Below, in pieces: positions 26,714 to 32,574 of a stretch of DNA of 32,574 bases (positions are counted from its first letter, which is position 1; every line of letters begins with the position of its first letter). The notes under the pieces are model-generated. The model made no database searches and had not been told where the DNA came from. It saw nothing but the letters and a program-made list of their open reading frames with translations. Origin of the DNA: Nitrococcus sp. (lineage in GTDB: Bacteria > Pseudomonadota > Gammaproteobacteria > Nitrococcales > Nitrococcaceae); contig JAKDMQ010000011.1 of assembly GCA_030452265.1 (NCBI GenBank), positions 1-32,574 on the forward strand, given 5' to 3'. The translations under genes and the position numbers were made by a program.

Positions 26714-26898
26714 TCAAATCAATCGTCGCCGCGGTGGCCATCGCCTATCGCCAGAATCCGCCGGCCCTGCTGAGTGTACTTGGCGTAATCCGCGCAGCAA
26801 ATCGCCTGCCGCGCACCGCGGCGGCCCGAAAATGCAGTGGATCATCAGGCGAACACGGTTCGCCTAGACGGGAGGTCGAGCATGCAATGTGTCATTGA
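26710..26898 (+). CDS. short open frame after the kinase, perhaps a gene start that has been cut
   Basis: A GTG overlapping the kinase stop (GTGA) opens a 62-codon frame that begins with a weakly hydrophobic stretch, IKSIVAAVAIAY. After about 30 codons the frame loses any recognisable character. The coupled start suggests that a third gene of the operon once followed and was truncated by a rearrangement. It may not be expressed; low confidence. Confidence 0.25.
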   Translation: MIKSIVAAVAIAYRQNPPALLSVLGVIRAANRLPRTAAARKCSGSSGEHGSPRREVEHAMCH

Positions 26899-26915
26899 GC
26901 TATGGCCAAAGCGCA

Positions 26916-27011
26916 TGCCTGGAAGAGCTGCTCGCGGCCAACGAGAAAGTAAACACCGTGTACAGCCCGAACCCGGTAGGGCTTTTTGTGCATACCTACC
27001 GCTTACTGTAA
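26916..27011 (+). pseudogene. possible transposase fragment (ISL3-like)
   Basis: One frame reads LEELLAANEKVNTVY before losing similarity and reaching a stop. This pattern recalls the LLxANExLNxxYLLK segment of ISL3-family transposases. The match is short, no other part of the element was found, and the call is from memory of the family. The remainder of 26899-27072 holds nothing recognised. Confidence 0.28.
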
Positions 27012-27072
27012 CGGGCCCGGTTGTTGGGCGGCGCTGGAATCAGGCACTAAGTCGCTGTTTCTACAAGTGTAT

Positions 27073-27162
27073 TGGCGGAGAGAGAGGGATTCGAACCCTC
27101 GATGGGTGTTAACCCATACTCCCTTAGCAGGGGAGCGCCTTCAGCCGCTCGGCCATCTCTCC
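27073..27162 (-). tRNA. tRNA-Ser, anticodon GCU
   Basis: On the minus strand the gene begins GGAGAGATGGCCGAGCGGCT and ends with TCTCTCCGCCA. The acceptor arms GGAGAGA/TCTCTCC pair fully, the anticodon stem-loop is CTCCC-CTGCTAA-GGGAG, the T arm carries GGTTCGAATCC, and a long variable arm (TATGGGTTAACACCCAT) marks it as a class II serine tRNA. The CCA end is encoded. Its position next to csrA is typical for gammaproteobacteria. Confidence 0.97.
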
Positions 27163-28999: not shown

Positions 29000-31609
29000 T
29001 CAAGCCAGTCGCTCCTGCACCCACGCCGCCACCGATGCAAGCGCCTGATCGAGCTGGCCGGGTTCAGTTCCGCCCGCTTGGGCAAAATCCGCTCGGCCGC
29101 CACCTCGCCCACCGACCTGCACGGCCACCGCATTGATCAGATCTCCGGCCTTGACTCGATTGGTGAAGTCGTTCGTCACCCCGCCAACCAAGCGCACTTT
29201 ATTCCCCTCCACACTGGCGAGCACTATTATCGCGCTGCCGAGCTTCTCTTTGAGCTGATCCACCGTATAGCGAAGCGCTTGGCTATCGACTGTATCCACC
29301 TTCGTCTCCAGTACGTTGACCCCGTCGATCAGCACGGCCCGATCGGCCAGGCTGCTGCCGGCCTGACTGGCGAGCTTCTGTTGCGCCCGCGCCACCTCCT
29401 TCTCCATCAGGCGATTACGATCGATCAGCTGTTCGAGCCGGGGCTCGATATTATCGGTGCTGCAGCGCAAGAGCTCGCTCATCCGGGCGATCCGGCGGGA
29501 AACCGCCTCGGCCCAGGCCACCGCCGCTAGGCCGGTTATCGCCTCGATCCGGCGTATACCCGCTGAAATGCCGGTCTCGGCGATGATCTTCAAAAAGCCG
29601 ATTTCCCCGGTGCGGCGCACATGGGTGCCGCCGCAAAGCTCGGTGGAAAAATCGCCAAAGCGCATCACCCTCACGGTATCGGCATATTTCTCCCCGAACA
29701 GCGCGACCGCGCCGAAGCCCATTGCCTCGTCGTAGCTCATGTAGCGCACATCGGCTGCATCGTTTGCGCGGATCCACGCGTTGACCAGTTGTTCGACCTG
29801 CTCAACCTGTTCGCGGGTCATGGGCTCAAACTGCGCAAAATCGAAGCGAAGCCGATCCGGAGCAACCAGCGAGCCCTTCTGCTGCGCGTGCTCGCCAAGC
29901 ACTTTGCGCAGGGCGGCGTGCAGCAAATGAGTGGCGGAATGGTTTAGCACCGTGGCTTGGCGGCGCTCGGCATCGACCATTGCGCTAACCCGATCACCCT
30001 CGGCGATACGGCCGCGCCGCAGCACGCCGATATGTCCAAAGGCGCCACGATACTTGACGGTGTCTCGAACCTCAAACTCCAGGCCGGCTGCCTGCAACCG
30101 GCCCTGGTCGCCCACTTGGCCGCCGGACTCGGCATAGAAGGGAGTTCGGTCCAGTATGGCCATGCCCTCTTCGCCCGCCTCCAGGTTGCTACGCCGCTCG
30201 CCCTGTGCATAAAGCGCGCTGATCGTGCTTTGGTCCTGCAGATGTTCGTAGCCGGTGAACTCCGTGGCCCCCTCGAAATTGCCCGTCTCGCCGTAGTCGG
30301 CCTTGAACGCGCTGGCCGCCCGCGCACGCGCGCGCTGAGCGGCCATAGCTTGCTCAAAGCCCGCCATATCGAGATCGAGGCCGCGCTCGCGCGCGATATC
30401 GCCCGTTAGGTCCACCGGGAAGCCATACGTATCGTAGAGCTTGAAGATGCTCGCACCGGGTATGGTGTTGCCCTCGAGGCGCCGCAAATCCTCCTCGATG
30501 AGCTTCAAGCCCTGCTCCAAGGTCTCGCGGAACCGCTCCTCTTCCTGCTCGAGGATGCGCTCGGCCTGAGCTTGCCCGCGTTCGAGCTCCGGATAGGCCG
30601 CGCCCATCTCCTGCACCAGCGGTGGGATCAAGCGGTAGAAAAACGGCTCCTCTATACCAAGCTTATAGCCGTGGCGTATGGCGCGACGAATGATCCGGCG
30701 CAATACGTAGCCTCGTCCTTCGTTGCTCGGGATTACCCCATCGACGATCAGGAAGGCGCAGGCGCGGATATGATCGGCGATCACGCGCAGCGAGCTGTTG
30801 GGCAGGTCGGCGCTACCGGCGATCCGCGCCGCTGCCTGAACGAGACGGCGAAATAGATCGATCTCGAAGTTATTGTGCACGCCCTGAATGACGGCGGCGA
30901 TGCGCTCGAGCCCCATGCCGGTGTCCACGCAGGGCTTGGGTAGCGAAGACAGCCGCCCGTGCGCGTCGCGGTCGTATTGCATGAACACGAGATTCCAGAT
31001 CTCGACAAAACGATCGCCGTCCTCCTGCGCCGTGCCGGGCGGACCACCAGCAACTTGTGGGCCATGATCGTAGAAGATTTCCGAGCAAGGCCCGCAGGGC
31101 CCCGTATCGCCCATTGCCCAGAAGTTGTCGCGCGCGCCGATGCGGGCAAATCGCTCAGGCGCCACGCCGATCTCCTCGAGCCAGATGCGAGCCGCCTCGT
31201 CGTCCTCCTCGAAAACTGTTACCCACAGGTGCCGCGGCGGCAGACTTAAGATCTCGGTGAGGAATTCCCAGGCATACCGGATGGCCTCGCGCTTGAAGTA
31301 GTCGCCGAAGCTGAAGTTGCCCAGCATCTCGAAGAACGTATGATGCCGGGCCGTATAGCCCACATTCTCCAGGTCGTTGTGTTTGCCCCCCGCGCGTACG
31401 CAGCGCTGTGCACTGGCGGCACGGCTATAGGAGCGCTGCTCGCGGCCGAGGAATACTTCCTTGAACTGGACCATGCCGGCGTTGGTGAACAGCAAGGTTG
31501 GGTCATTCGCGGGCACCAGAGGGCTGCCGGGCACGATCTCGTGGCCCCGTGCACGGAAATAATCGAGAAACGCCTGGCGAATCTCTGCGCTCGTTTTGAT
31601 TATGTCCAT
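29000..31609 (-). CDS. alaS: alanyl-tRNA synthetase
   Basis: Charges tRNA-Ala. 869 residues, near the usual 875. Class II catalytic core at the N-terminus (start [18 protein letters not shown], then [15 protein letters not shown] and [14 protein letters not shown]). The editing domain has the zinc/hydrolysis motif H557-SAT-H561 and C659-GGTH663, so removal of mischarged serine and glycine should be intact. The C-terminal C-Ala domain ends [15 protein letters not shown]. It lies 15 bases after the remains of recX, much closer than when a full recX is present, so it may be read from the recA transcript. Confidence 0.97.
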
Positions 31610-31624
31610 ATAATGATCAGTAGG

Positions 31625-31786
31625 TTATTCCAACGTGCAACAATCGTCCGCGACCCTATCTTCGAATACAAGGGGTGCATACTCGCGCTGACACAGCTTG
31701 CCCGTCAATCGGTGGGCCGTATGCTCACGTTGGCTCAGGAGGCGCGCCGCACACTCGCGCGCCCGCCGCCGCACTTGCTCATCCAT
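31625..31786 (-). pseudogene. recX: truncated recX (regulatory protein of RecA)
   Basis: The ATG at 31786, ten bases after the recA stop, opens a frame of 53 codons that begins MDEQVRRRARECAARLLSQR and continues EHTAHRLTGKLCQRE. This is the first RecX three-helix repeat (RARxxALRLLSxREHSxxELxxKLxxRG). It then ends in DRVADDCCTLE and a TAA. Full RecX is about 150-165 residues, so two of three repeats are missing, and only 15 bases remain before alaS. The loss is therefore a deletion and not a simple stop. The short product is unlikely to inhibit RecA filaments as normal RecX does. Gene identity is supported by position and sequence. Confidence 0.78.
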
Positions 31787-31796
31787 GGTGTGTGGG

Positions 31797-32574
<778 letters not shown>

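Follow-up and report, generated by a model that had tools for sequence, protein, structure and literature searches.

Probable decay of recX to a 53-codon remnant between recA and alaS in Nitrococcus, a genus apparently without LexA

RecX is a small protein that keeps RecA, a protein of DNA repair, in check and is usually described as a brake upon it. The full-length protein comprises ~150-190 residues arranged in three repeats, and in Proteobacteria its gene is commonly located beside recA. To our knowledge, the dispensability of RecX in nature has been little studied. In E. coli, RecX acts on the RecA filament and thereby inhibits RecA (PMC9252578, PMC1193525), while in Neisseria gonorrhoeae loss of RecX is reported to lower recombination (PMC1193525), so the sign of the effect of RecX loss is not certain. 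Treponema paraluiscuniculi encodes a C-terminally elongated RecX (PMC3105029), a genome-wide survey gives RecX as missing in Xylella fastidiosa (PMC7828034), and a survey of 117 species reports some without RecX (e.g. Helicobacter pylori) and some with recX located away from recA (PMC1193525). The Nitrococcus locus described here resembles the X. fastidiosa case in being that of a gammaproteobacterium without RecX, and it differs from that listing in that a remnant, together with a larger deletion in a sister species, shows stages of the loss (PMC7828034). Like the 117-species survey, which concerns other lineages, it suggests that recX is dispensable in evolution (PMC1193525). The loss of recX is thus ordinary gene decay of a kind already reported elsewhere, and the more interesting part is the order of events, in which LexA seems to have been lost first.

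The window, i.e. the whole 32,574-nt stretch of DNA that was analyzed, belongs to a Nitrococcus sp. genome (G000; 3.68 Mb in 419 contigs, 95.66% complete, 5.86% contamination), and the three genes concerned all lie on its minus strand. The 3' part of recA (31797..32573) is an ORF reaching the contig end, with its 5' end off the contig, and the encoded C-terminal part of RecA is 86-93% identical to RecA of four congeners. A 10-nt spacer (31787..31796, minus strand) leads from the recA stop to the start of the recX remnant, a frame of 53 codons (31625..31786) with its ATG at 31786 and its stop ending at 31625. An intact alaS encoding 869 aa (29000..31609) begins with an ATG at 31609, 15 nt downstream of the remnant stop. 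These coordinates confirm the gene order, the two spacings, and the 53 codons given in the preliminary description, and its estimate of about 100 deleted codons is close to the net loss of 109 that we find by comparison with the 162-codon recX occupying this position in three congeners. The 53-residue product matches RecX_HTH1 (PF21982) over residues 9-40 (profile positions 1-32 of 40) with 27.4 bits and an E-value of 3.4e-6, a partial match barely over the Pfam cut-off of 26 bits. Six NCBIfam RecX models match it weakly (best E 0.0011), and RecX_HTH2 (PF02631) does not match it. Set against the RecX family as a whole (PF21982/PF02631; structures 3c1d and 3dfg, both of which are matched by the RecX of the congener G001), the remnant is alike in its position between recA and alaS, its adjacency to recA being a trait of functional RecX, and in the sequence of its first repeat. 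It differs in lacking the second and third repeats, in the replacement of a conserved Glu, and in the net loss of 109/162 codons.

The genus is represented by five genomes (G000-G004). In G001, G003, and G004, an intact 162-codon recX lies between recA and alaS exactly where the remnant is found, and a full-length recX search recovers these genes with E-values of 1e-84 to 1e-104. In G002, the same interval holds a frame of only 7 codons in which the start and last bases of recX are kept; a TGGA micro-homology at this junction, seen by eye, was given no weight. Both lesions occur in fragmented assemblies (419 contigs for G000 and 660 for G002), each ~95% complete. A tree built from parts of recA and alaS of eight genomes places G000 and G002 as sisters with a support of 98, and the two share a changed recX start region as well: the recA-recX spacer measures 10 nt in both and 2 nt in the other three, and the distance from a GAGG motif in the recA tail, presumably the ribosome-binding site of recX, to the ATG is 15 nt rather than 7 nt. 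Given that the longer spacer is common to G000 and G002, decay probably began in their ancestor. The loss of recX proposed earlier from the window is borne out by the lack of a second copy, by the intact orthologs of three congeners, and by the larger deletion in the sister species, whereas its supposed recency is only half right in view of the shared spacer. We regard the 53-codon frame as a non-functional remnant of a decayed recX, with a probability of roughly 0.9.

Alignment to the intact genes of G001, G003, and G004 divides the remnant into two pieces. The first is the recX 5' part (31664..31786, minus strand), which keeps ~41 codons and thus most of the first three-helix repeat, and the second is the recX 3' end with small deletions and the ancestral stop codon (31625..31659, minus strand, as an outer limit, the tested part being the last 27 nt). 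These last 27 nt match the final 32 nt of recX in the congeners, with the two stop codons aligned. In a shuffle test, the score of this 3' match was reached in 0/5000 trials against G004, 48/5000 against G003, and 65/5000 against G001, and it was reached at 0/417 other positions within each of the three congener genes; in one of two MAFFT settings the match grows to ~35 nt. Since the remnant 3' end corresponds to the old end of recX, stop included, the lesion is best described as an internal deletion rather than a 3' truncation. The large loss described previously stands, but the frame does not simply end after 53 codons with the rest of the gene removed. As the alignment shows, an internal deletion fused the first repeat with what had been the 3' end of the gene, and small deletions followed, for a net loss of 327 nt. 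Where exactly the junction lies is uncertain, as the two alignments disagree.

The principal alternative is that the frame encodes a functional mini-RecX, in which one three-helix repeat would still bind RecA or regulate alaS. We consider this improbable, even though the frame is open, its start is intact, and most of RecX_HTH1 scores above the Pfam cut-off. Over the 36-40 retained codons, dN is 0.29-0.42 between G000 and intact recX versus 0.04-0.09 among the intact genes, and omega is 0.36-0.63 versus 0.14-0.26, while recA and alaS in G000 pairs show an omega of 0.04-0.13. The omega of the remnant is below 1, which may be counted in favor of a mini-RecX, and its bootstrap ranges are wide (0.13-1.5 over 36-40 codons) and overlap those of the intact pairs. 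Constraint acting over part of the branch would be expected to give a value below 1, although a weakly selected peptide would also fit. The large deletion is clear, and relaxed constraint on the remnant is indicated by these rates within wide bootstrap ranges. Residue 27 also argues against a working repeat, as it is Glu in 78/81 relatives (two Asp and one Gln in the others) and Arg in G000 only (0/81 others). At remnant position 15, Ala replaces Arg (Ala in 0/80 others), one of several residues peculiar to G000. These comparisons derive from an 82-sequence alignment consisting of four sequences from the genus plus 78 of 109 loci having a tblastn match, with 31 loci dropped. An N-terminal repeat that is still clean, as first described, is difficult to reconcile with the near-invariant Glu27 having become Arg and a profile match that stops at position 32 of 40. 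The suggestion of a retained short peptide fares no better, given the raised rate of amino-acid change and the sister species G002, which has no such product. Likewise, the last residues of a mini-RecX would stem from a degenerate 3' end carrying small deletions, and its start is at the longer spacing from the GAGG motif.

Still less probable, in our estimation, is that recX was relocated to another part of the genome, with decay only of the copy beside recA. Such a relocation has precedents in Photorhabdus luminescens and Neisseria meningitidis, in which recX is reported away from recA (PMC1193525). However, a RecX_HTH2 search that was positive in 8/14 control genomes found no match in the whole G000 genome, RecX_HTH1 is found at a single place, the remnant itself (E 3.4e-5), and the full-length RecX of G001 yields, besides the remnant, only matches of E 0.31 or worse. 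Similarly, a full-length search of the G002 genome gives no RecX match at E <= 1. The checks proposed with the preliminary description thus returned a RecX_HTH1 match for the product without RecX_HTH2, no second recX by either profile or by the whole G001 protein, and three intact congeners beside a more heavily deleted sister. The searches for a second recX cover ~95% of G000 and of G002, and the missing 4-5% could hold one. The least probable alternative, a full recX collapsed or mis-joined during assembly, might be suggested by the 419 contigs, the 5.86% contamination, and the contig end inside recA, but the retained sequence exhibits many substitutions and small deletions rather than a clean cut, and the corresponding locus of G002, on a contig of its own, carries a lesion of another form.

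If the frame is a decayed recX, as we favor, the simplest order of events would begin in the ancestor of G000 and G002, in which the spacing from the ribosome-binding motif in the recA tail to the recX start was probably lengthened. This may have weakened translation, and recX would no longer have been maintained. Separate or stepwise deletions would have followed in the two lineages: in that of G000, the alignment shows that a deletion removed most of the gene after the first repeat and brought the remaining part up against the former 3' end, and in that of G002, the gene was deleted entirely save for the start and last bases still seen there. Without RecX in the cell, it would fall to RdgC and to RecA itself to control the RecA filament. 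The loss of recX would take a brake off RecA, and RdgC is still encoded.

Among the other regulators of RecA and the SOS response, RdgC, an inhibitor of RecA in E. coli, is encoded in 5/5 genomes of the genus. In G000, the gene is split across two contigs (L138, G000:C70; L139, G000:C142), and a broken rdgC was rejected, as the exact 55-base overlap of the contig ends points to an assembly break. Profile searches for DinI gave no match in the five genomes of the genus, and among 14 control genomes DinI was found in E. coli only. The LexA_DNA_bind profile has no match in G000, G002, and G003 and weak matches (E about 1e-4) in G001 and G004; in each of the 18 further family members sampled (G005 to G022), it matches with an E-value of 1.3e-25 or better. 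The weakly matching protein of G001 resembles SufR and was not accepted as LexA. Peptidase_S24 matches occur within the genus in G000 and G003 only, and these proteins (L136, L137) score 36-41 bits versus a LexA cut-off of 111 and each have an integrase-like frame nearby; they are read as putative prophage-type repressors rather than LexA substitutes. Judging from the profiles, all five genomes of the genus seem to lack a recognizable LexA. With LexA gone in five of five and recX intact in three, recX would have been lost after the SOS repressor.

It is conceivable, though we hold it only tentatively and rather doubt it, that recX ceased to be kept by selection once LexA had been lost at the root of the genus, inasmuch as, in the absence of a LexA-controlled SOS response, RecA would no longer surge and its brakes could go. 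Loss of LexA alone as the cause is opposed by G036, G038, G040, and G050, which belong to a different family, show no LexA match, and have kept RecX_HTH2; the link between the two losses is therefore not strict. If the proposal were correct, an order of loss would be visible within the genus, with neither LexA nor DinI left in any of the five genomes, recX intact in three, fragmentary in one, and gone from another, and RdgC kept throughout. Whatever the cause, the five genomes, which are all without recognizable LexA and of which three have recX and two do not, constitute a natural series in which RecX loss can be considered apart from the SOS response. Our literature searches, mostly at the level of abstracts, found no report tying recX loss to LexA loss, and the 117-species survey did not look at such a link, LexA occurring 0 times in its available text (PMC1193525).

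Beyond the genus, RecX_HTH2 is found in 54/59 genomes (G000 included), the misses being G000, G002, G009, G041, and G055, and in 35/39 sampled genomes of the order that are at least 90% complete, all of which are among the 59. The absences in G009 and G041 were set aside as uninformative because an AlaS match is also absent in their assemblies; in G055, alaS is present and its locus yields neither recA nor recX. Locus organization was compared over 89 loci, comprising 80 among the matches listed for an AlaS query, 8 from within the genus and its family, and locus L123. The query is too conserved to single out close relatives, and its 80 loci accordingly serve as a background sample. Among the matches listed, 50/89 loci have recA and alaS on one strand, and these 50 include 46 with a full RecX match, the G000 remnant, and three with none (G002, L093, and L112). 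Both L093 (Photorhabdus namnaonensis) and L112 (Proteus hauseri) have recA next to alaS, and no RecX remnant was recognized between the two genes by eye or by tblastn. As for the several dead insertion sequences mentioned in the preliminary description, nine ORFs of the window were searched and none has a transposase match. A tRNA-Ser (gct) lies at 27073-27162, and the plus-strand ORF that overlaps it (26837-27112), which is without a Pfam match, is probably spurious.
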